This document shows positions 6,730-21,210 of a stretch of 23,593 nucleotides of DNA, piece after piece. Every line of letters starts with the position of its first letter. Within the stretch, counting starts at the first letter, position 1. Location of the stretch: positions 1 to 23,593 of IMG/VR virus record IMGVR_UViG_3300030098_006613, one strand, 5' to 3'. This DNA comes from a virus. A model generated the notes under the pieces. It saw only the letters and a program-made list of their open reading frames with translations. It was not told where the DNA came from and did no database searches. The position numbers and the translations under genes are program-made.

Positions 6730-9700
6730 ATGTCCGTTAAAAAATATAAATTTGTATCCCCTGGAGTTTTTGTTTCTGAAATTGACAATTCTCAATTACC
6801 AGAACAACCCGCAGATATTGGACCTGTGGTTATTGGTCGCTCCCAGCGCGGACCAGGCATGAAGCCTGTAACAGTCGAATCATTTGCTGATTTTATTAAT
6901 ACTTTCGGCAACCCTACCCCTCAAATTAACACTGGTGATGCATGGCGAAATGGTCCCATCACTGGTCCTACCTATGCTGTTTATGCAGCACAAGCGTGGT
7001 TAAGAAATAACAGTCCTTTGACGTTTGTTAGGCTTTTAGGGGAAGAAGACCCACAAAAAGAAACCGCAGGAGCAGCCGGATGGTTCACACGAGATACAGA
7101 CGGTGACTTTAACGGAAATGCAGTCGATGGCGGCGGCGCATACGGATTATTTATTCTTCCTTCTTCTTCAGTCTCTGATGCTCAAGTCGATGACTCGGGC
7201 GACCCGATACTAAAAGGACGAACTCAAATGACTGGTGGTCTTGCTGCAATTTGGTATTGCAACGAAGGATACATCACTTTGACAGGTTCTCTGGCAGGTG
7301 CTGGAGCAGCAGGAGCTGGAACTTCTAGTTGTGGTGTGTTAGTCAGCAGTGAAAGTGGCAAAAAAGCTTTTACAGCAGAGATCTTTAACAGCGCTAACGC
7401 TTCCCAAGGAAAAGTAAATTTCTCTCTAACAAGAACAGACGATAATTACATTAGAAATGTTTTCAACACCTCTCCTCCTCAAACTAACAATCGTATCACT
7501 TCAGATTATTCTAATATATTCTTAGGAGAAAGCTTCGAAAAGCATATTGACCAATCTGTTCGTATAGTTTCTGGTGCGTTCGCCGTAGATGGACAGCCTA
7601 ACGGGGTGGTAAGCAGACCGACTGACTATTGGGGCGTTATCATGCCTCTTAAATTGTCGGGTTCTTCTATTGAACAAGGAGATTTCCGAAAGCAAGCCCA
7701 AGCAGCTCAGACAGGTTGGTTCTTCTCGCAAGATATTGTACCACGACCTGGGGAGATTCCAAATGCTCTTACGCCGGTCTCGGGAAATGCTTATCAAGCT
7801 CAAAACATGCCTAAATTGTTTAGACTTAAGGCGCTCTCTAAAGGAGAATGGGCTTCAAAAAACCTTAAAGTATCTATTGCCAATATTAAACAATCTTTTA
7901 ACAGCAACTATCCTTATGGTACTTTTTCGATTCAACTAAGAAGGCTTGATGACAATGATTCAGCCGTTCAGATTGTTGAACAATTTGATAACTTGAGCTT
8001 AGATCCTGATTCGGCTAATTACATCTCTAGAAAAATTGGTGACCGCTACCAAACTTGGGATAACACCAACAAGCGATACATCGAATACGGAGATTATGCC
8101 AATCAATCTAAGTTTGTCTATGTTGAGGTAGATCCTGGTGTAGCTAACAAAACCACCGATGGCGAAAGATTGCCGTTTGGTGTGTATGGTCCTCCTACGT
8201 GGAAGTCCATTCAGTTTAGAAGCGGCGCACTTGCCCAGACCTTGGACAATCTCTCTGGAGAACTAACAACTGCGGCTGTTTATAGTACGGCAGTAACAAA
8301 TGTTGCATTTCCTGACGCCGGCGGACGAGGCACAATGGGCGGTGAACCGATATATGCTTCCGGCCCAGGTGCCGCTGAAACATTTATAAGTCTTAACGAT
8401 GTAGATCCAGTAATGGACTGGTCTGTTGGCTCGACAAAGTTGAATGCCCTTACTGGTACTCTAGAATTCCCAAGAACGTATGTTCGCGTGAGTAGTTCTA
8501 CTGGAAACAGCAATTCGCCATCTGCGGTTTATTGGGGATTTGACAGCTCTCTTGGAGCCACTTCACCAAGTATTTTTGCAAAATCTACCTTGGATGTTGT
8601 ATTGCCCAAGCCAGCGGGACAAGATGATTTTACTGTAGCTGAAGACGGTCCTACACAATATAGTTGGATTTTTACACTTGATGATATCACGCAGAGAGTG
8701 TCAGGCGCAGTAGGCACTGGTTATACGGGAGACAATATTACGCCTAATGCAATCTATGTTTCAGGTTCTCGTGCTAATGGACTTTCTGTAACCTCTATTT
8801 CCAGCAGTTGGCAGAAGTTGTTAGATTTAGGATTCAACTCTTTCACATCCCCTCTCTTTGGTGGAACCGATGGGTTGGATATTTACGAAAAAGAGCCGTT
8901 CAACAATACAGATGCTCTATCAACCTCGGCAACAGAAGCTAACAGCTATGCTTACTACAGCACCAAAAAGGCTATTGATTCTATTACAGATCCAGAAGTT
9001 GTTGAATACAACCTAGCCTCACTCCCTGGTATTACCAATACAAAGCTCACCAACTACTTGGTTGAAACCTGTGAAAGCCGAGGAGATGCACTGGCAGTTG
9101 TAGACTTGCAAGATGTATATGTACCTGCTGTCGATTATGGAGTCGGCGGCGCACAAAGAGGTAATGTTAATACCTGTATTACAACTCTTAAGAATCGCCA
9201 ACTCGACAGTAGTTATGCTTGTGCATACTATCCCTGGGTTCAGATTCAAGATACTATCAACGACATAACTCTCTGGGCACCACCTTCAATCGCAGCGCTA
9301 GGAACTTTCTCAAGTTCAGAGTCTGACTCTAAACTTTGGTTTGCACCAGCCGGATTCAATCGCGGTGGTCTCACTGAAGGTTCTGCGGGTATTCCGGTGG
9401 TTGGGGTGAGAGATAAGCTCACCTCTAAGCAAAGAGACAAGCTATACGAGGTGAATATTAACCCTATCGCCTCATTCCCGGCAGAAGGTATTGTGATTTT
9501 TGGTCAAAAGACCCTTCAAGCTACCCCCTCTGCCTTGGACAGAATTAACGTCCGCAGATTGATGATTTTTGTGAAGAAGCAAATTTCCCGAATTGCCAAT
9601 AACATTCTTTTTGAACAGAATGTACAGGCTACTTGGGATGGATTCCTCGCAGCCGTCAATCCTTTCCTCAGTTCTATTCAATCGGATTTCGGCTTAACGG

Positions 9701-9855
9701 ACTTTAAGGTTGTTCTTGATGAAACAACCACAACCCCTGAGTTAATTGACCGAAATATCTTATACGCTAAGATTTTCCTCAAACCTGCCCGTGCGATTGA
9801 ATATATTGCAATTGATTTCAATATTACGAACACGGGAGCTTCATTCGAAGACTAA
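6730..9855 (+). CDS. 18: Tail sheath protein, gp18-like, enlarged
   Basis: A 1041-residue contractile sheath subunit; T4 gp18 is 659. The N-terminus (SPGVFVSEID near residues 10-19, then GPVVIGRSQRGPG and a FADFINTFG motif) and the C-terminus (LYEVNINPIASFPAEGIVIF near 905-924, ALDRINVRRLMIFVKKQISR, FLAAVNPFLSSI, and the final strand IEYIAIDFNITNTG) are clear sheath signatures. Both ends form the inner core domain that makes the handshake strands between neighbouring subunits. The extra length lies between about residues 110 and 860, a Gly/Ser/Thr-rich region expected to form surface domains on the outside of the tail. The start is supported by AGGAG 8 bases upstream. The tube gene follows, as in other contractile phages. 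Confidence 0.95.
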   Translation: MSVKKYKFVSPGVFVSEIDNSQLPEQPADIGPVVIGRSQRGPGMKPVTVESFADFINTFGNPTPQINTGDAWRNGPITGPTYAVYAAQAWLRNNSPLTFVRLLGEEDPQKETAGAAGWFTRDTDGDFNGNAVDGGGAYGLFILPSSSVSDAQVDDSGDPILKGRTQMTGGLAAIWYCNEGYITLTGSLAGAGAAGAGTSSCGVLVSSESGKKAFTAEIFNSANASQGKVNFSLTRTDDNYIRNVFNTSPPQTNNRITSDYSNIFLGESFEKHIDQSVRIVSGAFAVDGQPNGVVSRPTDYWGVIMPLKLSGSSIEQGDFRKQAQAAQTGWFFSQDIVPRPGEIPNALTPVSGNAYQAQNMPKLFRLKALSKGEWASKNLKVSIANIKQSFNSNYPYGTFSIQLRRLDDNDSAVQIVEQFDNLSLDPDSANYISRKIGDRYQTWDNTNKRYIEYGDYANQSKFVYVEVDPGVANKTTDGERLPFGVYGPPTWKSIQFRSGALAQTLDNLSGELTTAAVYSTAVTNVAFPDAGGRGTMGGEPIYASGPGAAETFISLNDVDPVMDWSVGSTKLNALTGTLEFPRTYVRVSSSTGNSNSPSAVYWGFDSSLGATSPSIFAKSTLDVVLPKPAGQDDFTVAEDGPTQYSWIFTLDDITQRVSGAVGTGYTGDNITPNAIYVSGSRANGLSVTSISSSWQKLLDLGFNSFTSPLFGGTDGLDIYEKEPFNNTDALSTSATEANSYAYYSTKKAIDSITDPEVVEYNLASLPGITNTKLTNYLVETCESRGDALAVVDLQDVYVPAVDYGVGGAQRGNVNTCITTLKNRQLDSSYACAYYPWVQIQDTINDITLWAPPSIAALGTFSSSESDSKLWFAPAGFNRGGLTEGSAGIPVVGVRDKLTSKQRDKLYEVNINPIASFPAEGIVIFGQKTLQATPSALDRINVRRLMIFVKKQISRIANNILFEQNVQATWDGFLAAVNPFLSSIQSDFGLTDFKVVLDETTTTPELIDRNILYAKIFLKPARAIEYIAIDFNITNTGASFED

Positions 9856-9897: not shown

Positions 9898-10461
9898 ATG
9901 GCATTTTGGGGAGGACAAGGAAACGCAATGGTTGATCCGAAGCGATCATTTAGATGGCTCGTAACTTTCGGAACCAAGCATAATAAATTACACGATTGGT
10001 ATGCTAAATCAGCAAATAAGCCAAGCTTTACGGTAGGTGAAACTCCTCATAGGTTTGTTAATCACACTTTCTTTTACCCAGGAAGAGTGGAATGGCAAAC
10101 AATTGACATTGTTTTAGTGGACCCTGCCCGCGAAAATGACAGCTCGCTGGCATTGATGCAATCTCTGCAAGAATCCGGTTATTACAACCCTACCGATCCT
10201 CTTTCGGCAACTAGCACTATCACGAAGCGCAACGCTGTCAAGGCACTCGGTGGGCAAATTTTTCTTAAGCAATTAGGGCAAGATCGTAATGACATAGTGG
10301 AAACCTGGACTCTTATTAATCCATGGATTAAAGATATTAAATTTGGTGATTTGAATTACGAAAGTGAAGATATGGTAGAAATTACCTTAACAGTCAGGTA
10401 TGATTTTGCTACACTTACAGCAGGAGTTCCAACTAAAACAGCTTCTACTCCAAAGAAATAA
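9898..10461 (+). CDS. 19: Tail tube protein, gp19-like
   Basis: A 187-residue protein (T4 gp19 is 163) that stacks in rings to make the inner DNA conduit. The N-terminus FRWLVTFG, the KPSFTVGETPHRFVNHTFFY segment and GRVEWQTIDIVLVDP match the conserved first half of T4-type tube proteins. The end of the fold is WIKDIKFGDLNYESEDMVEI followed by a last strand LTVRYDFATL. The last 12-15 residues are a Thr/Lys/Pro tail likely to be flexible. AAGGAG at 9883-9888 fixes the start. It sits directly after the sheath gene, as in nearly all contractile systems. Confidence 0.93.
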   Translation: MAFWGGQGNAMVDPKRSFRWLVTFGTKHNKLHDWYAKSANKPSFTVGETPHRFVNHTFFYPGRVEWQTIDIVLVDPARENDSSLALMQSLQESGYYNPTDPLSATSTITKRNAVKALGGQIFLKQLGQDRNDIVETWTLINPWIKDIKFGDLNYESEDMVEITLTVRYDFATLTAGVPTKTASTPKK

Positions 10462-10484: not shown

Positions 10485-11357
10485 ATGTCTAGAAACAATA
10501 TGGACCGTCTTGGGGGAGACGATAAGTCCCCCGGCGGTGCAGATGCACCTTTGTCTAATGTCCCCATGGACACCACTTCTCAACCACTTAGCTTTTCGGT
10601 CCCAACCGAGCACGTTGAGCTACCTTCAGGTGGGAAATATTATCCCGAGAATCACCCTCTTCATAACGCGGAAACAATTGAGATTAAATATATGACCGCG
10701 AAAGAAGAGGATATCTTAACTTCTCCTAGTCTGTTAAAGAAAGGGCTTACAATCGAAAGATTGCTCAGAAGTATCATTTTGGATAAAAGTATTGACCCTC
10801 AAAACTTACTTAGCGGCGACCGCAACGCAATTTTGGTTGCAGCCAGAATCACAGGATATGGAGAAGAGTACGCAGCTAAGCTTACTTGTCCTTCATGCTA
10901 TACTCCTAACGATTGGGCAGTAGACCTATCCGCCGTAATGGATTCCTCTAGAACGACCTTTGAGGATTCTCCATACAACATTACAGCAAACGAAGACGGC
11001 ACTTTCGTCATTAACCTTCCAAAGACAGATTTAAATGTAACTGTAAAGTTGTTAACTGGTAGAGATGAGAAAATGATCGCTTCTGCTATTGAAAAAAGAA
11101 AAAAACACAAGCTTGATGAAAGCCAATTGACTGAACAATTAAAGCAAATGATTGTTGCAGTGAATGGAAGAGAAAACCCCGCCGAAATTGATCAATTTAT
11201 TAATTTTGTACCAGCATTTGATTCTAAATATTTGAGAAATGCATATGCTGCCCTGGTTCCTAATATCAACATGAAGCATGATTTTACCTGCTCAGCCTGC
11301 GATTACAATGATGAGGTGGAGGTTCCGCTTACTGCGGAGTTTTTTTGGCCTAAGTGA
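10485..11357 (+). CDS. 26: Baseplate hub assembly protein, gp26-like (T4 baseplate family PF12322)
   Basis: A 290-residue protein; T4 gp26 is 208. After a disordered Gly/Asp/Pro-rich lead (residues 1-35) come VELPSGGKYYPE and EIKYMTAKEEDILTSPSLLK with the following helix LTIERLLRSIILD, all typical of gp26-type proteins. Two Cys pairs, C135/C138 (CPSC) and C269/C272 (CSAC), probably join to hold one zinc ion. The protein ends EFFWPK. The start is supported by AAGAGG at 10474-10479. In tail operons this slot, between the tube gene and the tape measure gene, is where tail assembly chaperones are found. The last codons TTT TTT TGG form a run of seven T from which ribosomes could enter the overlapping downstream frame (see the separate entries at 11340 and 11344). 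Confidence 0.8.
   Translation: MSRNNMDRLGGDDKSPGGADAPLSNVPMDTTSQPLSFSVPTEHVELPSGGKYYPENHPLHNAETIEIKYMTAKEEDILTSPSLLKKGLTIERLLRSIILDKSIDPQNLLSGDRNAILVAARITGYGEEYAAKLTCPSCYTPNDWAVDLSAVMDSSRTTFEDSPYNITANEDGTFVINLPKTDLNVTVKLLTGRDEKMIASAIEKRKKHKLDESQLTEQLKQMIVAVNGRENPAEIDQFINFVPAFDSKYLRNAYAALVPNINMKHDFTCSACDYNDEVEVPLTAEFFWPK
11340..11346 (+). other. Putative programmed ribosomal frameshift site (seven T)
   Basis: The gp26-like frame reads GAG TTT TTT TGG CCT AAG TGA here. A +1 or -2 slip on the T run moves into a frame that stays open for 62 codons. A -1 slip hits TAA within a few codons. Just upstream is a small hairpin (CCGC at 11325-11328 with GCGG at 11334-11337, extendable by one or two pairs), and a GGAGG at 11318-11322 lies 17 bases before the run. 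No good independent start exists for the downstream frame. Frameshifting is inferred. Confidence 0.5.
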
Positions 11358-11535
11358 CCAATATACTGAAATGGTATATGAGGAGCTTTTTCAGCTAAAA
11401 CATCACGGTAACTGGAGCTTCATTGAGGCTTATAATTTGCCGATGGTATTGAGAAAGTGGTTCTTAAGGCGTTTGGCTAAACAGTTCCAAGATGAAAAAG
11501 ATCAAATAGAAAAAGCTCAGAGGAAGAATCACTAG
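11344..11535 (+). CDS. Frameshift extension of the gp26-like gene, or a separate tiny gene from ATG 11371
   Basis: The frame encodes GLSDQYTEMVYEELFQLKHH and continues through WSFIEAYNLPMVLRKWFLRR to a charged helical tail. The composition looks genuinely coding and helical, and the pattern (aromatic, Y.LP..LRK...) resembles small proteins I recall next to gp26 in T4-like phages. The frame also runs back to an ATG at 11278, but that part only mirrors the gp26 zinc-binding end in another frame. The ATG at 11371 would give 54 residues but has no Shine-Dalgarno sequence; it lies 13 bases past the gp26 stop, so reinitiation is possible. With a +1 shift the fusion would be 349 residues, with -2 it would be 350. 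By analogy with G/GT proteins, the fusion could chaperone the tape measure protein. Confidence 0.6.
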   Translation, partial: FGLSDQYTEMVYEELFQLKHHGNWSFIEAYNLPMVLRKWFLRRLAKQFQDEKDQIEKAQRKNH

Positions 11536-11539
11536 ACGC

Positions 11540-11580
11540 ATGCCTTTGGAGACAAAAGTCTCCAAAGGCATTATTTTATT
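11540..11580 (+). terminator. Strong hairpin terminator, 14-bp perfect stem
   Basis: ATGCCTTTGGAGAC pairs perfectly with GTCTCCAAAGGCAT around an AAAA loop (stem 11540-11553 and 11558-11571), followed by the T-rich TATTTTATT. It begins 5 bases after the stop of the frameshift extension. The T tract is interrupted by A, so efficiency may be partial, or the hairpin may be a processing or mRNA-protecting element. Confidence 0.8.
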
Positions 11581-11593: not shown

Positions 11594-11615
11594 TCAATAG
11601 AGAGGTTTGTTTATT

Positions 11616-11951
11616 ATGAAAAGCGACAATGAGCTAGTTTCGCAAGTTTTAGACTTAGGAGCTAATCGAAAAGGCGAGATAACTGAAACTTATTTAGGAG
11701 CCATTGGTACAGGTATCAAACAAATGATTGCATGGACCTTTGGCGAAAACATTTTCTTTCCTTCTAAGATAAAAGGCACACGCCGCGAAGTAGATTCGTT
11801 CATGAACGCATTGACTGGCGAGCGGCGATATATGCAGGCTTACAAGCGCTACGGCTTAAATGATCCTCGGACTTACGATAGTAAGTATTTGCTCGACGAC
11901 GCCATCAAAAATTTTGAAAGGACAACAAAATTAAAATGGCCATTTAAATAA
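11616..11951 (+). CDS. Conserved-looking small tail-region protein, function unknown
   Basis: A 111-residue protein. I chose ATG 11616 because AGAGAGG at 11599-11605 is correctly spaced for it; the in-frame TTG at 11607 would sit almost on the ribosome-binding site. The first half contains ETYLGAIGTGIKQMIAWTFG, a helix with some hydrophobic character but too short and mixed for a membrane span. The second half, TRREVDSFMNALTGERRYMQ then YGLNDPRTYDSKYLLDDAIKNFE and WPFK, is helical and charged. I recall similar small proteins beside tape measure genes in marine T4-like phages but cannot name a function. Its place between the gp26-like gene and the tape measure gene suggests a role in tail assembly. 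Confidence 0.8.
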   Translation: MKSDNELVSQVLDLGANRKGEITETYLGAIGTGIKQMIAWTFGENIFFPSKIKGTRREVDSFMNALTGERRYMQAYKRYGLNDPRTYDSKYLLDDAIKNFERTTKLKWPFK

Positions 11952-11966: not shown

Positions 11967-14441
11967 ATGGCAAACGGTGATGACGACAACAGTACTATGA
12001 GTCAAGAAGAGTTTAATAAACTCTTAGACGCAAAACTTAAAAGACAGACGAAATCTAACGAACAAATAAAAGAAGAGATCGCGCTGCGTCAAACTTTATT
12101 AGACTTGATGGATGATGAGATTGGTTACTTTGAAAAGCAAGAAGCCGCTGATCTCCTAAGAATAAGGCAACTTAAACACGAGATCAAAGCTCAAACGGAT
12201 CAGATGGATAAGCTTCTTGAAAGACTAGCCACTGAGAAAGATCTCACAGATGAACAGCGCCAACGAATGCTCGCACAAGCAGCGGCATTTGCGAAAACCG
12301 CCGCCGCCTTGGAAAAGAAAATTGCTCTTCTTAAGGAAGCGAAGAAAGCCGCTGGAAATGTAGGTGAGCAGTTTGATACGTGGCTTGGCAAACTTCAACT
12401 CAATGACTCTTACTTAAAAACCTTTAGTGGAGGTCTTGTTAACGCTGCTTTTCAAGCCGGCGGTCTTCGTAGAGCATTTGATGAAATTGGAAAGACCTTG
12501 GCAAAGCGCTTGTCTCCAAAACAAATTATTGGAACTTTTGTAGGTAATATTGAACAACAAACGACTCAGATGGTCGGTAAAGCCTCCAGCGCTTTCGCTG
12601 ATTTTACGGGTCAAACAATGGAAAGGCAAGAGGACTATAGAGGAAGCATTGTAAAAGTTGCCAGAGCCCAAGCAACTCTTGGAGTAGGAATCATTGAAAA
12701 CACCAAGACTTTCACTGACTTATATACTTCATTGGCAAGTTTTAAACATCTTAATAAAGCCACTCAAGAAGAACTAGTCCAAACAGCCAACATACTTAAG
12801 AGATTTGGTGTAGATGGAAAAACATTTGGACAAACAATAGAGTTTGCTCAGCTGGCTTTGGGGAAAACTGTCCCTGAAGCGCAAGCGCTTACTAGAGAAA
12901 TGGCAAGCTTTAGTAAACAGCTTAAAAAGTCTGCCGGTGAAGTGATGAAAGATCTTACTCGCATGGAAGGTGTTATTGCTGAGTTTGGTGCTCGCGGCGT
13001 AGAAGAATTTAAAAAACTAGCTAAAGCAGCTGATACAGCAGGTGTGTCTATAGATACTGTCGCATCTGTAGGTAAGAATTTTGATTTCCTAGAAGATGCC
13101 GTACCTAGAATAGCTCGTCTTAATACTTTATTAGGGCGTAACGCTCTAGATGCAATGAAAGTCATGCGTGCTCCTCTTGAGGAACGTAGTCGCATGATAT
13201 TAGATGCCGTCAAAAAGACTATGAATCTAGAATCGGCTGAAGCCCGTCATAATAAAATTTTGATTGCCCAACATCTGGGATATAGAGATGTTGGGGAAAT
13301 GATGCGTATGGTAAATAACCAAACTAAAGAGCTTACCGAAAGTCAAAAGCAGCTTAATGCCAGGGGTCTTACTCAAGAGAAATTAGCCGAACTTGCTGAA
13401 AATGCCACCCCTCCTTTGACGGTGTTGTCCGCAGCTATGGAACAATTTGTTATTTTCTTGTTTCCCTTAATTGATATGCTCAGAGAAGTTACAACATATT
13501 TGGCGGAGAATGTTTCTACCGAATTTATGGAGTTTGCAGGTGTAATTATTTTGATTTCTCTGGGTCTGAGTCTTATTTCGCTTGCCTTCGGAGGCATCTT
13601 TAAAGTGATAGGTAAGTTAATAAAACTTACGCCTTTAGCTGCTATAGGAACCAAAGCGCTGACAACAGCAACGGGCGGTCTTGCCGTCGCCGCCACCGCC
13701 GCGACTCCCGCAATGGCGGCGCTATCTAGAGCCTCAATGGGCTTTATCATTCCTATGACTATTATCGCAGTTGCTATTGCTGTTGTGGTTGTGGAATTGA
13801 TTGATTTTATGAAGGTAGCTATCAAAGCTGGTGTTCCTATTATGGACTTAGCCCTCGCCGTCACGGCGCTGGGATTTGCGTTTGCAATGTTGGGGAAAGT
13901 GGCGTTGCCTACGCTATTAGGTGCCGGCGCTGTCGCCATCGGAGTCGGAGCTTTGGCTGTTGCATTTAACCTTTTCTCTTCAAATAATCTTAACGCCGTA
14001 GCTGTAACATTTAAAAGCATGGCTGCTGTTGTTGCAAAAAATCGCAACCCATTTTTCTTATGGGCTCAAGGTATTAAAGACTTTGCAAGTGCTGCTTCGG
14101 ACTCTAAGGAAGACATTGAGAACATCTCTAAGTGGATTGCCAACATGAACCAATTGAATAGAAAGGTTGGCAAAGTGGAAGTCATTGAGTCGATGACGAA
14201 GTTTACCACTACAAGCGTAGAAGGAATAAAAGAAGCACGAGCTTTGATTCATGAGTTAAGATTCGGTGGCGCAGAAGATACTGCCAAGGCTATAGAAAAC
14301 ATGATAAACGCATTCAATACTAAAACACAAAAAATGTTGCTTGCTGCAATGCCTAAAGATATCGTTATCAAGCTAGATGACTACGAAATGGGTCGATGGG
14401 TGAGACGTAAGAATAAAGAACAATTAAGGAAACCTAACTAA
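11967..14441 (+). CDS. Tail tape measure protein (gp29 analogue)
   Basis: An 824-residue, mostly helical protein; T4 gp29 is 590. Residues about 10-130 form a charged coiled coil. About 135-500 is helical, with repeated Ala-rich and amphipathic segments. Hydrophobic stretches then appear near 524-548 (VIILISLGLSLISLAFGG), 591-611 (FIIPMTIIAVAIAVVVV), 625-645 and 649-668, separated by Ala/Thr/Gly-rich linkers. A long coiled-coil protein with a central hydrophobic membrane-active region, placed after the tube gene and before baseplate genes, is the usual form of a tape measure. It fixes tail length and may form a channel in the host inner membrane on ejection. The stop overlaps the next start (TAATG), so translation is coupled. 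Confidence 0.85.
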   Translation: MANGDDDNSTMSQEEFNKLLDAKLKRQTKSNEQIKEEIALRQTLLDLMDDEIGYFEKQEAADLLRIRQLKHEIKAQTDQMDKLLERLATEKDLTDEQRQRMLAQAAAFAKTAAALEKKIALLKEAKKAAGNVGEQFDTWLGKLQLNDSYLKTFSGGLVNAAFQAGGLRRAFDEIGKTLAKRLSPKQIIGTFVGNIEQQTTQMVGKASSAFADFTGQTMERQEDYRGSIVKVARAQATLGVGIIENTKTFTDLYTSLASFKHLNKATQEELVQTANILKRFGVDGKTFGQTIEFAQLALGKTVPEAQALTREMASFSKQLKKSAGEVMKDLTRMEGVIAEFGARGVEEFKKLAKAADTAGVSIDTVASVGKNFDFLEDAVPRIARLNTLLGRNALDAMKVMRAPLEERSRMILDAVKKTMNLESAEARHNKILIAQHLGYRDVGEMMRMVNNQTKELTESQKQLNARGLTQEKLAELAENATPPLTVLSAAMEQFVIFLFPLIDMLREVTTYLAENVSTEFMEFAGVIILISLGLSLISLAFGGIFKVIGKLIKLTPLAAIGTKALTTATGGLAVAATAATPAMAALSRASMGFIIPMTIIAVAIAVVVVELIDFMKVAIKAGVPIMDLALAVTALGFAFAMLGKVALPTLLGAGAVAIGVGALAVAFNLFSSNNLNAVAVTFKSMAAVVAKNRNPFFLWAQGIKDFASAASDSKEDIENISKWIANMNQLNRKVGKVEVIESMTKFTTTSVEGIKEARALIHELRFGGAEDTAKAIENMINAFNTKTQKMLLAAMPKDIVIKLDDYEMGRWVRRKNKEQLRKPN

Positions 14442-15484: not shown

Positions 15485-15826
15485 ATGCGAAGAAACAACT
15501 TAAGAAATAAATTTGTTAATGATACTGTAGAATACAGGAATATCTTAAAAAAGAAAAAAAGAGACTTCATTGTGCAGTTTAAAACCCCTATTCTGGAACA
15601 TATTGAGCCCGAAGATTATGATTTATTAGATATTGATGTCTATACGTGGCAACTTGGAGATCGTCTGTTTAAACTTGCCCACCAGTATTATGGTAGAGCA
15701 GACGCATGGTGGCTTATAGCGATGTTTAATAATCGCCCTACCGATCAACACTTTAGACCAGGGGACGAAGTTTATATCCCTACTAATTATTTACAAGTCT
15801 TGCAACTCATAGATATTACTGACTAA
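15485..15826 (+). CDS. Small LysM-like baseplate protein (gp53-like)
   Basis: A 113-residue protein with AAGGA at 15471-15475 overlapping the previous stop. Residues about 53-100 read as a LysM-type module: YTWQLGDRLFKLAHQYYG, then DAWWLIAMFNN, ending RPGDEVYIPT. The YYG...WW.IA..N.......PG....IP pattern is the one found in T4 gp53 and in tail protein X of P2-type phages, where the module acts as a structural part of the baseplate and is not an enzyme. T4 gp53 is larger (196 residues), so this is a shortened form. The basic N-terminus (KKKKR near 22-26) may anchor to partners. Confidence 0.7.
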   Translation: MRRNNLRNKFVNDTVEYRNILKKKKRDFIVQFKTPILEHIEPEDYDLLDIDVYTWQLGDRLFKLAHQYYGRADAWWLIAMFNNRPTDQHFRPGDEVYIPTNYLQVLQLIDITD

Positions 15827-15837
15827 AACGAGATATA

Positions 15838-18800
15838 ATGGCACCTTTTAACATTAGAAAAGCTCCCAAGATAGAACAATTTATGCGATTGTACTTGAAC
15901 GATCCGGCTACTTACTTGTTTCAAAAACCTGCCTCAAAGGTGATAGATTTTTCTGGAAAAAACGATCCCATTAAAGAAGCAGAGAAATCAAAAGAAATAT
16001 TTAAAAAAGTTGTAGGTTCATTATTTTTGGACGATCCAAATCTAAAGGTGACGATAGGAGATATACCAGGAGCCAAAGGAACCGCTACTGCGCCAGTCCC
16101 ATCTATCCCCGGTTTCGATGCGAGTGATATGAGAAATCTTTTCAAAACCGTCTTCGAAGGGAACGGTCAAGAGCAATTTGATCTCCACAGATCCATATCG
16201 TGGGCATATTACTTGTTGTGGTATCATTTGAAAAAAGATATTGATGCAGGTGACGAGAAAGAGATAAAAAGAAAACTAAGGATATTATGGGAAACCGAGT
16301 GGGAACGCACACCCAAAGACGGCATACAATTAGCTAAAGTTTTCGGCGGAGGCATGACAGAAAGCGATGCTAGTATTCATTCCGTATCCGACGCCCGACG
16401 ATGGACTAATTCCAAAACAGGCGAAAAACTTCCTTCTAATTTAATTATTCCACCCCCTACTAAAACTCCCAACAACACAGTGCCAGCAGTAGGCGTATAT
16501 TGGCGAGAAAATGGATTGCGTGGTTCAGAGATAAAAAACGCTCTTGCCACTAATGATTCCTCCCTAAGTGCAGAAGGTTTTACTAGTGCTCTTAAAAGCA
16601 AATTGCAAAGCAATGGTAATGTTTATCGTACATATGGAAGCTTCCGCATTTGTGCTTATTTTGAAAGGCATCGCTTAGATACTGTAGGTCAAAAAGACTT
16701 TTCAATAGTTAGAAGAGCCCCGAAATGGCTCAATGAACAAGTCGGACACCTGACGCCTAACGGTTTTTATTGGAACCGGGCAAGCAACTTTCCTGATAGA
16801 ATAAACCTGTTGTATAAAGACGCGGAAGACAGAGCGGATAAAATCGCTAGAAGCTTGGGGATAAAACTGGCAGACATGGACGTAGCTAGATCACAATATG
16901 GTCGCGCTTATCCTGGGTTCCCCGTCAGACAGCACACCTGGCGAGATACTAAGCTCTTCAACGACTTTGATGATATGATTTCTATGTATACGGACAGTGG
17001 CGATGACGGAACAAGGTTGATCTTTCCTGCTAACCTAAAAAAGCCCAAGGATTATTATTCACCCTATTTAGACAAAACGTACTCTACTACCGATGGTTGG
17101 CGCTATAGAAATTTTGGATATTCTGGCGGCGGCGCTATGCACAACATGAACCCCTGGGACGAAAGAATTCCACAATGGAGCAATATCGAAGAGGAAAGAT
17201 ACATATTAGATGAAAACAATAAGGCACTCACCGAGAAGATTATGGACCCAGGTAACTACGCAGTAGGGCTCAGCGAACATAAAAAAATACTTAACTCTCG
17301 GTCACGGCAGCAGCTTTGGGTGGCTTCTGCTATGGACCCTGAGATTGTGCAGACATCTATGCATGAAGTTGCGTGGTTTACATTGCTTGAGCCAGGACGC
17401 TATCCTGCTTTACAACCCTCTCAGGCTCTTCTTAACAAGTGCAAAAAAGCAGACGCATGGGAAGCCACTACTTTTACCGACGATTCTATTATTTGGTCTC
17501 CTCATAAATATAATGACGGACGACTAGGGTACGCCAAGTGGATGTCTAACGATAACACAGACAACGAACACGGTGGAAAAGTTGCTCAACTTTATTCTTG
17601 GGACCAAGATTCTGCCAAAGATGTATCCGAAGGGAAAGAGGCATGGGACAATGAAGGTGGTATAACCGTTAGAGGACAAAAACAAACGAATCCACTAACT
17701 CAGATGCAAACACTTCTCCAAAAGGGAAGCGCCTGGGGACGAGCCATCGGTAGACACAAAAATTATAATATGTTCGGTTGGATGTCCTCTATGTGGTATC
17801 ACGGGGAGGGGAACTCTGACCGCAGGAAGGTACGATTGACAGCCCCTCGTTTCATGGCTATGTTAAATGGATTTTATAATTTCGATCCTATCTTTTCTAG
17901 ACAGTTGCGATTCTCTATTACTCCAAGCTTGAGCTTTGAGTGGACCAAGTGGGAACTTGTAGATAGTCTCTATAATATTGAGTATGTCTCGTGGTTAGAG
18001 TGGAACACCCGCGACCAAGGCGGCGTCGGCTCCCAGGTCGCCACGAAAGGACCTAACGCCGGTTTACTGCCTCCCGCAGGACTAGATGAAGGACGCCGTT
18101 TGCTGCCTATTTTTGAGGTAGAGTGGAATTATTTCTTTCTTCAAACCATGCGACTTACTTCTTATTTCTTGTCTATGTTTATGGAAGGAATCTTTAGCTA
18201 TGGTGATGATCAAGGCAGAAATTGGCTTCCTTTTAAAGATGGCGATATAAATGATTCATTCATTGCTAGTAAATATGGAAAGAGACGAAAAGGACACGGC
18301 TGGGATGAGTGTACTGTCTCTAATTTCTATAAAATTTTGGTTTCTACTATATACCGGGCTGTCTTTTCATTTGCTGAGTTTGAAGCTGAAATTGAAGCTA
18401 TTAAAAAAGCCAACGATGCTTTATCGCCCGACGATCCCAGAGTTTCAGAAGACCGAGAAAATGTCGTACTAGATAACATGCAGTGCTTTCTTTTGAACAC
18501 TGCCGATGTTTTTGCTAAAATTCACCAAGTAGACAAGGTTGCCAATAAGTTTAGAACCCATTACTTGTTTACCAATGTTAAGGGTCCAAGTTCCAACTTT
18601 GCTAACTTAATTGGCTTCAAGCCAGAATCAACCACAGCTTTCTTAAACCTGTCTTCTAAAGATTTGGCTCAACTACAACCAAAAATTCGTCTTTTTAAAG
18701 AAAGAGTTGTGTATGATACAGATGTAGATCAATACGGCAATGCTTCTACCGGAGACCAAACAGGAAAGGTTCTGTATCGCAACACCTACGAAGTCCCTAT

Positions 18801-21210
18801 CTTGTTTGACCCTGTTGCCCTGGGCTCTTATGATGTAGCGCGTATAACGGCAGCAGGAGGACGCCAGCCCGGCGGCGGAATTCAAGAAATACGCTTCTCC
18901 CAACAAGGAGGACAAGAGATTGGGAATATCAATGAGACCAAAGAGGTGGAGATAAAATATTTTTTCAACAGTATTGAAGACATGTTTGTCAATTGGCCGC
19001 GTTATGAAATTAATCGTAAAGGAAATAAAATTAAATCTATTAAGGCGACCTATCCTTTTGGGAAGCGTAGCTTTGGAGCTAGAACTCCCTCATTTGATAA
19101 AAATAAATATAAAATTCAAGGTGAGGTTCCTTATTCTTCCGCCGCCGAATTATTCTTTGCGGTCCCTAATCAATTTTTAGCAGAGGTCCCTCAAGGTCTT
19201 GTGGACTTGAACAGCCCATCTCATGCTATTCTGTTGGAGCTTGGTTGGATGTGGTCAGAGCCGTTTGGAAAAAATCGACGTAAAGGAAGTGTGCTGAGAC
19301 AATTAAATGAACAAAAACTATCTCGCACCTACAAGCTCTCACCTACTGATACAGATTTTGAATTTATGGAAACTGGCGCGATTAAAGCAACAGTAAAATA
19401 CATAGCGTTTTCACACCATCTAAATTCTCTAGAAGAGAATAAGCTTTTTCCGGTATCTGGAATCATTGCTAAAGAAGTTAAGGATAATAAAGATTACCAA
19501 AAGCACATGAAAACAATCAATCGAATAGAAAAAAAATGGAAGGCTAATCCTAACCATGCGAGAACTGCTCAAGATATAGAGCAATACGAGAAAGCCAAAA
19601 CAGCTATTGATGCGCTCATCAAGGCAGCGAAAGAAAAACAATCGGCAAGATATCGTAACGAACAGTTGCAAAAGTTCATGAGAAGACTTACCGAAGCAGG
19701 CATGGTACACAGAGTATATATCCCAGCGCCCTTTTTAGGACAAAGAAGTGACAATAGAGTCGTCCGATGGTATCCCTATAGAAATATGACCTTGTTCAGG
19801 CGCTTTAAAAAGCACCTCGCAGACGAAGGAAGAAGACCCGATTCTCGCACACGTAATCGGCTCAACGCCATTAAAGAAGCTCTTAAGAGAGGTAAAAAGC
19901 CTGATCCAAATAAAAAAACTGGGGCGAAACTGCCCTGGGATGGACCAGAATGGCCTATTGATTTTATTTATTTTGGAGATTTAATTCATGTTCTTTTAGA
20001 ATACAATTGGATAAACTATGGCGACCATATCGAACCGCCAGAAAAGTCGGGACCGTACCGGATGCCTCATCTTAAACACATACACTTCATTCTAGGAAGC
20101 ATACAAATTCCTGTTATCAAAGGCGCTGGGTTCGCTCCTACGTGGGTAAGCTTATGTGATCTTCCGATTGTGGTGGATTTCTTGGGAGAATTTATTGTAA
20201 ATAACATAGCGACTACTGAAAATTACAACATGACGGTTTCTGATTTTATACTGCAATTTTTTAAAGATATTCTTTATAAATATTTTGATGAGACTTGCTT
20301 CATCACGCAACAAGGGCTAGATCGCGCCAAACCTGAAATTACGTGGTTTGACTTAATGGTGCCATTTACAAAAAGCGGAAAATACGATTACAGAAACGAC
20401 ATGGCTGAATTGATTTCGTCATTTCAGCCACTCATCAAATCGCCTGTTAACTCCAGCCAGGTAAACCCCCCACCTTTGCCCCGCGTGGAAGGTATGGGTC
20501 GGTTCCACAACAAGGCTAGATTCCGCACTATGTTTAAGCGTTACGAAACACAGATAAAAAAAACGAACCCAGCTTCAAAAAAAGGTAAGTCAGCAATGGT
20601 GCAATTTTGTTTCCTCGGTGCTCATGCAATTGCAGAAGGAACTTACAGCGCCAAGGAAGATAGAAAACAGAATATTCATCATTTCTACATGGGTCGTGAT
20701 TTAGGTCCGGTGAAGAAGATTCAATTTAAATCAGAACAGATAAAAGGTATGTCCACTGCGTTATTGCTCGGCGGCACCAAACAATTTAAACACGCCGTAG
20801 ACCAAAGCACAATTGAAGCGAAGATGATTATTCCTCGTGTATTTAACGCAGACGTAACTTTAGTAGGAAACACGCTTTTTGAAACCGGTCAAACTTTCTT
20901 TGTAGATCCGGTTCTTGGAACTTCGTTAGGCATGACAGGCAAAAAGAAGCAAAAAGGTTTTAATATTATTGAACAGACGGGCTTGGGGGGTTACTACTAT
21001 ATTACCAAGATTGATACTATTATCGCCCCAGGAAGATATGAGACTGTTTTAGAAGGCAAGACGGACAAAAGTGCGTCCCGAGAAACAGTCACGCAAGCTT
21101 CATTTAATCCCAAAGACATGGAAAAGAAAGTCAAAGAAGCCCTTGAGGCTGGAAAAGAACAGTTCGATGGCATGCTGAAAGACGCCAAAGACAAAATGAA
21201 CCCTTTCTAG
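15838..21210 (+). CDS. Giant baseplate structural protein with hub-like C-terminus
   Basis: A 1790-residue protein, the largest in the window; I recognise no full-length family. The N-terminal 900 residues are rich in Trp, Tyr, Asn and Asp, with many short aromatic motifs. About 910-1330 has strands and charged helices (for example KEVEIKYFFNSIEDMFVNWP near 1032-1051). A Lys/Arg-rich helical linker lies at about 1220-1360. The region near 1400-1520 includes HIHFILGSIQIPVIKGAGFA and DFILQFFKDILYKYFDETCF. Residues about 1585-1745 contain MIIPRVFNADVTLVGNTLFE then FFVDP, and YYITKIDTIIAPGRYETVLE, a pattern like the closing domains of tail hub proteins (gp27/gpD-type). A helical tail ends the protein. 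Only a weak ribosome-binding site precedes it. It probably combines hub and wedge roles. No lysozyme or peptidase motif was recognised. Confidence 0.65.
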   Translation: MAPFNIRKAPKIEQFMRLYLNDPATYLFQKPASKVIDFSGKNDPIKEAEKSKEIFKKVVGSLFLDDPNLKVTIGDIPGAKGTATAPVPSIPGFDASDMRNLFKTVFEGNGQEQFDLHRSISWAYYLLWYHLKKDIDAGDEKEIKRKLRILWETEWERTPKDGIQLAKVFGGGMTESDASIHSVSDARRWTNSKTGEKLPSNLIIPPPTKTPNNTVPAVGVYWRENGLRGSEIKNALATNDSSLSAEGFTSALKSKLQSNGNVYRTYGSFRICAYFERHRLDTVGQKDFSIVRRAPKWLNEQVGHLTPNGFYWNRASNFPDRINLLYKDAEDRADKIARSLGIKLADMDVARSQYGRAYPGFPVRQHTWRDTKLFNDFDDMISMYTDSGDDGTRLIFPANLKKPKDYYSPYLDKTYSTTDGWRYRNFGYSGGGAMHNMNPWDERIPQWSNIEEERYILDENNKALTEKIMDPGNYAVGLSEHKKILNSRSRQQLWVASAMDPEIVQTSMHEVAWFTLLEPGRYPALQPSQALLNKCKKADAWEATTFTDDSIIWSPHKYNDGRLGYAKWMSNDNTDNEHGGKVAQLYSWDQDSAKDVSEGKEAWDNEGGITVRGQKQTNPLTQMQTLLQKGSAWGRAIGRHKNYNMFGWMSSMWYHGEGNSDRRKVRLTAPRFMAMLNGFYNFDPIFSRQLRFSITPSLSFEWTKWELVDSLYNIEYVSWLEWNTRDQGGVGSQVATKGPNAGLLPPAGLDEGRRLLPIFEVEWNYFFLQTMRLTSYFLSMFMEGIFSYGDDQGRNWLPFKDGDINDSFIASKYGKRRKGHGWDECTVSNFYKILVSTIYRAVFSFAEFEAEIEAIKKANDALSPDDPRVSEDRENVVLDNMQCFLLNTADVFAKIHQVDKVANKFRTHYLFTNVKGPSSNFANLIGFKPESTTAFLNLSSKDLAQLQPKIRLFKERVVYDTDVDQYGNASTGDQTGKVLYRNTYEVPILFDPVALGSYDVARITAAGGRQPGGGIQEIRFSQQGGQEIGNINETKEVEIKYFFNSIEDMFVNWPRYEINRKGNKIKSIKATYPFGKRSFGARTPSFDKNKYKIQGEVPYSSAAELFFAVPNQFLAEVPQGLVDLNSPSHAILLELGWMWSEPFGKNRRKGSVLRQLNEQKLSRTYKLSPTDTDFEFMETGAIKATVKYIAFSHHLNSLEENKLFPVSGIIAKEVKDNKDYQKHMKTINRIEKKWKANPNHARTAQDIEQYEKAKTAIDALIKAAKEKQSARYRNEQLQKFMRRLTEAGMVHRVYIPAPFLGQRSDNRVVRWYPYRNMTLFRRFKKHLADEGRRPDSRTRNRLNAIKEALKRGKKPDPNKKTGAKLPWDGPEWPIDFIYFGDLIHVLLEYNWINYGDHIEPPEKSGPYRMPHLKHIHFILGSIQIPVIKGAGFAPTWVSLCDLPIVVDFLGEFIVNNIATTENYNMTVSDFILQFFKDILYKYFDETCFITQQGLDRAKPEITWFDLMVPFTKSGKYDYRNDMAELISSFQPLIKSPVNSSQVNPPPLPRVEGMGRFHNKARFRTMFKRYETQIKKTNPASKKGKSAMVQFCFLGAHAIAEGTYSAKEDRKQNIHHFYMGRDLGPVKKIQFKSEQIKGMSTALLLGGTKQFKHAVDQSTIEAKMIIPRVFNADVTLVGNTLFETGQTFFVDPVLGTSLGMTGKKKQKGFNIIEQTGLGGYYYITKIDTIIAPGRYETVLEGKTDKSASRETVTQASFNPKDMEKKVKEALEAGKEQFDGMLKDAKDKMNPF

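Follow-up and report, generated by a model that had tools for sequence, protein, structure and literature searches.

Does the gp26-like gene of this phage specify a single protein, or does it also encode a longer form through a second reading frame that overlaps its 3' end? The DNA analysed, hereafter called the window, is a stretch of 23,593 nucleotides from a virus record of IMG/VR. The original prediction was that a programmed shift fuses the gp26-like protein to an extension read in another frame, on the plan of lambda G/GT. The comparative evidence presented here supports such a fusion, and we consider it very probable that this gene yields both tail assembly chaperone (TAC) forms by programmed +1 frameshifting at TTT TTT TGG CCT. 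Judging from profile matches (Pfam, PHROGs), the window carries clustered structural genes from a T4-superfamily myovirus, with the following features.

6730-9855: tail sheath protein of 1041 aa, with a conserved C-terminal domain (residues 933-1033) and a large extra middle part
9898-10461, + strand: tail tube protein, gp19-like (phrog_4542, E=1.1e-24), encoded directly before gp26
10485-11357, + strand: gp26-like (PF12322) protein, putative short tail assembly chaperone (TAC-N), 290 aa, ending ...EFFWPK*
11317-11323, + strand: Shine-Dalgarno-like TGGAGGT, 20 nt 5' of the P-site codon, found in the near clade only
11324-11338, + strand: hairpin TCCGC-TTACT-GCGGA just 5' of the T run, a possible 5' stimulator
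11340-11351, + strand: predicted slip site TTT TTT TGG CCT
11347-11535, + strand: +1-frame extension of 62 codons (C domain, 'T'-like), stop TAG at 11533-11535
11540-11571, + strand: 14-bp intrinsic-terminator-like hairpin, a perfect inverted repeat with a T-rich tail, 3' of the extension
11607-11951: ORF of 114 aa between the extension and the tape measure gene
11967-14441, + strand: tape-measure-like protein (phrog_1533, tail length tape measure protein, E=6.8e-6)
15485-15826: baseplate wedge protein

The gene order is tail tube (phrog_4542), gp26 (phrog_150), one 114-aa ORF and tape measure (phrog_1533), and the gp26-like gene lies in the G/GT-type slot between the tail tube and tape measure genes. 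The 114-aa ORF had no significant match in Pfam or PHROGs. An ORF of 1790 aa (15838-21210) lies 3' of the wedge-like gene, and a search of NCBIfam with it gave no match.

Frame 0 of the gp26-like gene ends with GAG TTT TTT TGG CCT AAG TGA. No stop interrupts the +1 frame between 11278 and the TAG codon, and entry by a +1 slip would leave 62 codons (11347-11532; GLSDQYTEMVYEELFQLKHHGNWSFIEAYNLPMVLRKWFLRRLAKQFQDEKDQIEKAQRKNH), for a fusion of 349 residues. The -1 frame is closed by a stop lying 4 nt before the frame-0 stop, and the T run of the window, G TTT TTT T, is not the -1 heptamer T TTT TTY of the cyanophage-type TACs. The candidate ATG for the extension (11371) is located 13 nt past the TGA and has no Shine-Dalgarno sequence. 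The 62-codon open frame, the early stop in the -1 frame and the missing Shine-Dalgarno start had been correctly described, as had the perfect terminator past the extension stop. A GGAGG (11318-11322) and a short hairpin had also been described just upstream from the run and both are present, the hairpin with 5 bp (TCCGC/GCGGA), but the GGAGG is 20 nt from the P-site codon, a larger distance than a prfB-type stimulator would allow.

Homologues of gp26 were gathered from IMG/VR and from annotated phages, five gp26 proteins and one extension serving as seeds. After the removal of duplicates, the census comprised 264 loci, each consisting of gp26 with its downstream sequence, and most of the contigs were metagenomic. 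All 264 distinct loci matched the extension profile; the match was in the +1 frame for 261 of them and in the -1 frame for three, and no locus lacked the extension. The same arrangement was found in sequenced isolates, namely the Microcystis phage Mel-JY01, the Flavobacterium immuto phages, SP-15 and LIS04. An alignment of homologues had been proposed as a check on the prediction, and among the homologues the slip site and the +1 frame (261/264) are conserved, whereas the ATG at 11371 is not (2/94). The arrangement is not peculiar to this phage but general in a large clade, with -1 versions in cyanophages and many other T4-superfamily phages.

The substitutions in the extension point in the same direction. 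The pN/pS ratio was 0.30 in the +1 frame, versus 1.1 and 1.8 in the other frames (318 pairs), and changes were biased to the third codon position of the +1 frame. As judged from these patterns, the extension is evolving as a protein in the +1 frame. A sequencing error or a decayed frame, with the extension left untranslated, might be suspected from the metagenomic nature of the contigs and from the annotations, in which the region appears as intergenic sequence or as independent ORFs. However, the recurrence of the arrangement in 261 distinct loci and in the isolates, together with purifying selection in the +1 frame, already refutes this explanation, the probability of which we regard as practically negligible.

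The sequence at the junction is strongly constrained. Among the 240 loci whose A-site codon is TGG, 215 have TTTTTTTGGCCT, eight have TTTCTTTGGCCT and five have TTCTTTTGGCCT, and the rest carry other variants. In 20 further loci, the Trp of the A-site codon is replaced by Tyr or Phe, with the first base still T. Throughout the main clade, the P-site codon is TTT or CTT, never TTC, and the next base is always T, resulting in a shift-prone YTT_T at which the P-site tRNA could re-pair in the +1 frame; the 94 dereplicated loci include 87 with TTT, seven with CTT and none with TTC. On a YTT_T sequence, tRNA-Phe or tRNA-Leu can move forward by one base and pair anew with UUU, the mechanism known from prfB. 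TTC accounts for 24% of the Phe codons in gene bodies and its absence from the P site is significant (p=6e-11), and for the Pro that follows TGG, 91 of 92 dereplicated loci use CCT, versus 30% elsewhere (p=1.7e-46); many of the loci are related, so that these p-values for synonymous bias overstate independence, but the direction is clear.

The variants of the site also bear on how the extension frame is entered. The original prediction had left the choice between a +1 and a -2 slip, and only the +1 slip was borne out. A -2 slip on the T run, as in Mu, would lead to the same frame with one extra Phe, and the seven T residues of the window would let UUU re-pair two bases back. However, the variants TTT CTT TGG, TTC TTT TGG and TGG TTT TGG allow no matched -2 re-pairing, and yet they have the extension in the +1 frame and all keep YUU_U, which makes a -2 slip very unlikely. 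Transcriptional slippage, generating a second mRNA in the fused frame, might equally be proposed for seven consecutive T residues, but these same variants have runs of only three or four T and still keep the +1 extension; we consider this explanation extremely improbable.

The preference for CCT can be accounted for by double coding, because GGC CTN in the +1 frame encodes Gly-Leu. This Gly-Leu pair, directly past the slip, is kept in 232 of the 240 loci, including loci that have lost the frame-0 Pro: L098 and L099 have TGG TTT AAG, read as GGT TTA, and L095 has TGG GCT, read as GGG CTC. The retention of Gly-Leu in L095 and L098 despite the loss of the frame-0 Pro argues that decoding in the +1 frame begins at the slip rather than at a later ATG. 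The conserved extension domain likewise starts at the slip codon, before the ATG at 11371. In 55 loci, no more than 30 nt separate the upstream +1 stop from the frame-0 stop, and this is the sole interval in which the +1 frame can be entered.

These observations weigh against the extension being a second protein started separately, by reinitiation at the ATG at 11371 or from an upstream +1 start. Such a start could be favored by the short distance of this ATG from the TGA, and the Mel-JY01 record lists the extension as a separate overlapping CDS. However, a Met at the corresponding position (extension codon 8) was found in only two of 94 loci, the +1 frame contains no ATG before the domain core in 142 of 261 loci and no ATG, GTG or TTG in 68 of 261, and the ATG of the window has no Shine-Dalgarno sequence and lies 3' of the start of the conserved domain. 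Neither a separate ribosome-binding site nor a conserved ATG at 11371, either of which had been named in advance as arguing for two proteins, was found among the homologues. We therefore consider separate initiation highly improbable, and a +1 slip at YUU_U remains our preferred reading.

We looked for elements that might stimulate this +1 slip. Synonymous constraint rises from about 12 codons 5' of the slip site. Only seven of 240 loci have a T directly before the T run, the other 233 having C, G or A, which suggests that the -1 heptamer T TTT TTT is avoided. The region upstream from the site (-30 to 0) folds more stably than expected, with a mean z of -1.73 when protein sequence and codon usage were held, but this excess shrank to a mean z of about -0.8 once G/C counts were also held, with control windows at about 0; the register of the hairpin differs between relatives and the effect is modest. 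In the near clade, the Glu codon within TGGAGGT (codon -9) is GAG in 43 of 44 cases. No strong, universally conserved stimulator was found among the homologous loci, and downstream RNA structure, which was also looked for, was weak. The roles of the hairpin, of TGGAGGT and of T avoidance as stimulators of the +1 shift are therefore suggestive only.

The gp26-like protein matched PF12322 with a score of 55.1 bits (curated cut-off 24.5, E=1.1e-14) and phrog_150 with an E value of 4.5e-18, and it carries zinc-ribbon cysteines. This protein and the extension were folded separately. The AlphaFold2 model of the gp26-like protein had a pLDDT of 90.5, and the best solved match of its residues 38-126 was YqbN (3klu; Z 5.8, 79 aligned residues, 3.1 A), which we take to be a member of a prophage chaperone family. 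The second match of this N-domain was the HK97 TAC (2ob9; Z 5.6, 75 aligned residues, 3.2 A), and the next row had a Z of 3.2; all these values are below 8, and a structural Z in this range is no proof by itself. The extension, which had been expected to be helical, was indeed modeled as three helices (pLDDT 92.5). A search of the PDB with this model returned no matching chain, Pfam and NCBIfam contain no family for the extension, and the Foldseek matches all had E>0.1, those with names including P-HM1 Gp51 and two tail chaperones.

The extension profile nevertheless matched, over 53 columns (E=4e-8), a profile built from 16 -1-frame extensions located behind gp26. One of these 16, the S-PM2 'gp51', belongs to phrog_634 ('baseplate hub assembly catalyst'). 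PF12322 matches T4 twice, the first approximately 200 residues of T4 gp51 match this family, and residues 147-246 of T4 gp51 match phrog_634. The PF12322 and phrog_634 matches together indicate that T4 gp51 consists of gp26 plus the C domain. A direct match of the extension to T4 gp51, with a single sequence or a small profile, was too weak to use, and the link is instead drawn from phrog_634 and phrog_150, the double PF12322 match in T4 and the profile-profile match. This chain of profile matches makes the extension domain a homologue of both the cyanophage "gp51" and the C-terminal part of T4 gp51. The assignment of gp26 as the short chaperone (TAC-N) and of the gp26-extension fusion, or gp51, as the long chaperone (TAC-NC) is supported on the same comparative grounds.

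The predicted scheme would be as follows. Most ribosomes would read to the TGA and produce the 290-residue short form (TAC-N, the 'G' form). A minority would slip by +1, the peptidyl-tRNA-Phe moving from UUU at 11343-11345 to UUU at 11344-11346 before the UGG is filled; the next codon would be GGC at 11347, followed by CUA AGU and so on for 62 codons, and the product would be the 349-residue long form (TAC-NC, the 'GT' form) with its three-helix C domain. On the model of lambda G/GT, the tape measure protein would be coated by short and long forms alike, and tail tube subunits would be brought in through the C domain carried by the few long molecules. Coding in the +1 frame, entry at YUU_U and the identity of the two forms as TAC-N and TAC-NC are supported by the sequence comparisons; we infer the efficiency of the shift, any contribution of the hairpin and the action of the proteins as chaperones, and tube recruitment by the C domain is proposed by analogy.

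In many other T4-superfamily phages, the C domain lies in the -1 frame. This was the case in the cyanophages, Pseudomonas pf16 and PA5oct, Vibrio VH7D, Aeromonas phiAS5, Acidovorax ACP17, the rhizobial phages, Xanthomonas XacN1 and Stenotrophomonas RAS14, and in nearly all such phages the C domain was behind T TTT TTY. At the gp26 end of S-PM2 (L126:2640-2864) and of L130, L131, L134, L135 and L136, 'gp51' is in the -1 frame behind T TTT TTC. Annotators either give this 'gp51' of cyanophages and other T4-superfamily phages (about 57 aa) a gene of its own or overlook it; it is probably synthesized fused to gp26. The C domains of Bacillus SP-15, Listeria LIS04 and Streptococcus GXN1 are in the +1 frame, and these phages also conserve an NCC CGA TTY sequence. 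It follows the Phe-Phe codons (L112:3270-3310, L114:3190-3232 and L115:3170-3211, for SP-15, GXN1 and LIS04, respectively), and the slip in these three phages may occur not on UUU but on NCC C, with the rare CGA codon occupying the A site.

A tree built from 39 gp26 proteins grouped the window with Mel-JY01, the immuto phages and a huge phage in one supported clade (100/97). When the +1 label was placed on this tree, the starred branches forced at least two changes, and the best tree needed three. The three census loci with the extension in the -1 (or +2) frame (L051:3229-3276, L057:2504-2551 and L140) have TTC TTC TGG CCT TCC CG[GA] TAG at the gp26 end; they are related and nested inside the +1 clade, and their slip point is not obvious. 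The direction of the predicted shift is labile, and the fusion is kept. We give about even chances to a fuller scenario, in which a large environmental T4-superfamily lineage switched from -1 to +1, with a minimal YUU_U and a sense A-site codon, aided by a hairpin behind the ribosome and by T avoidance before the run, and in which the direction changed at least twice (to -1 again in L051, L057 and L140) with the fusion kept.

The T4 superfamily would thus include a one-gene, forward-shift solution to the making of its two chaperones, and three arrangements, separate genes (T4), a -1 shift (cyanophages and others) and a +1 shift (here), can be tied together as routes to one protein pair. The result corrects the annotation of hundreds of environmental phages, as well as that of Mel-JY01, the immuto phages, SP-15 and LIS04, in which the second half has been missed or listed as a separate hypothetical gene. 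The loci also provide a natural data set of more than 250 prfB-type +1 sites with a sense A-site codon.

Xu et al. reportedly described frameshifted tail assembly chaperones in 2004, with -1 shifts in most phages and a -2 shift in Mu, and Vladimirov, Gautam and Davidson are said to have identified the chaperones of T4-like phages in 2022. Atkins et al. 2016 (PMC5009743) describe G-T frameshifting as broadly conserved, T4 being the exception, and consider a +1 shift 'very likely' in the haloarchaeal HSTV-2. According to the text citing it in PMC10885494, some T4-like phages have a short gene and a long fusion gene (Vladimirov et al. 2022), and poly-T -1 signals are known in T4-like TAC-N genes, in the words of the citing text in PMC12846349 (Vladimirov et al. 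2022). The frameshift had been put forward as new for PF12322/gp26 genes, but the G/GT assignment and the -1 poly-T sites of the T4-like family had already been published. No description of a +1 version in the PF12322/gp26 family was found in the open-access literature, and it is the +1 variant, in its direction and its site, that appears to be new.

The gene of the window shares the PF12322 N domain with T4 gp26 and gp51, and in gp51 this domain is followed by a C domain from the family of the extension. However, T4 obtains the two forms from separate genes, whereas a single gene would give rise to both here by a +1 shift. Homologous N and C domains are also present in S-PM2, P-HM1, S-SM2, pf16, VH7D, phiAS5, ACP17, PA5oct, Atu_ph07 and XacN1, and in the phages with a -1-shifted 'gp51' the predicted slip involves the same pair of Phe codons at the end of the gene. 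Those phages have the C domain in the -1 frame behind T TTT TTY, whereas here the base before the run is mostly C or G and the C domain is in the +1 frame. With lambda G/GT and other TACs, the gene shares the slot between tube and tape measure, the predicted short and long forms and a predicted slip near the 3' end, and the N-domain has a tentative structural match to the HK97 TAC (Z 5.6); it differs from the lambda type in its +1 direction and its YUU_U site, and no sequence similarity was found. With the CUU_UGA site of Escherichia coli prfB (RF2), it would have in common a single P-site slip from YUU to UUU, CTT_T being a natural variant among our loci. The A-site codon of prfB is UGA, whereas it is a sense codon here (UGG, UAC or UUC), and the conserved Shine-Dalgarno sequence at 3-nt spacing of prfB has no counterpart in this family.
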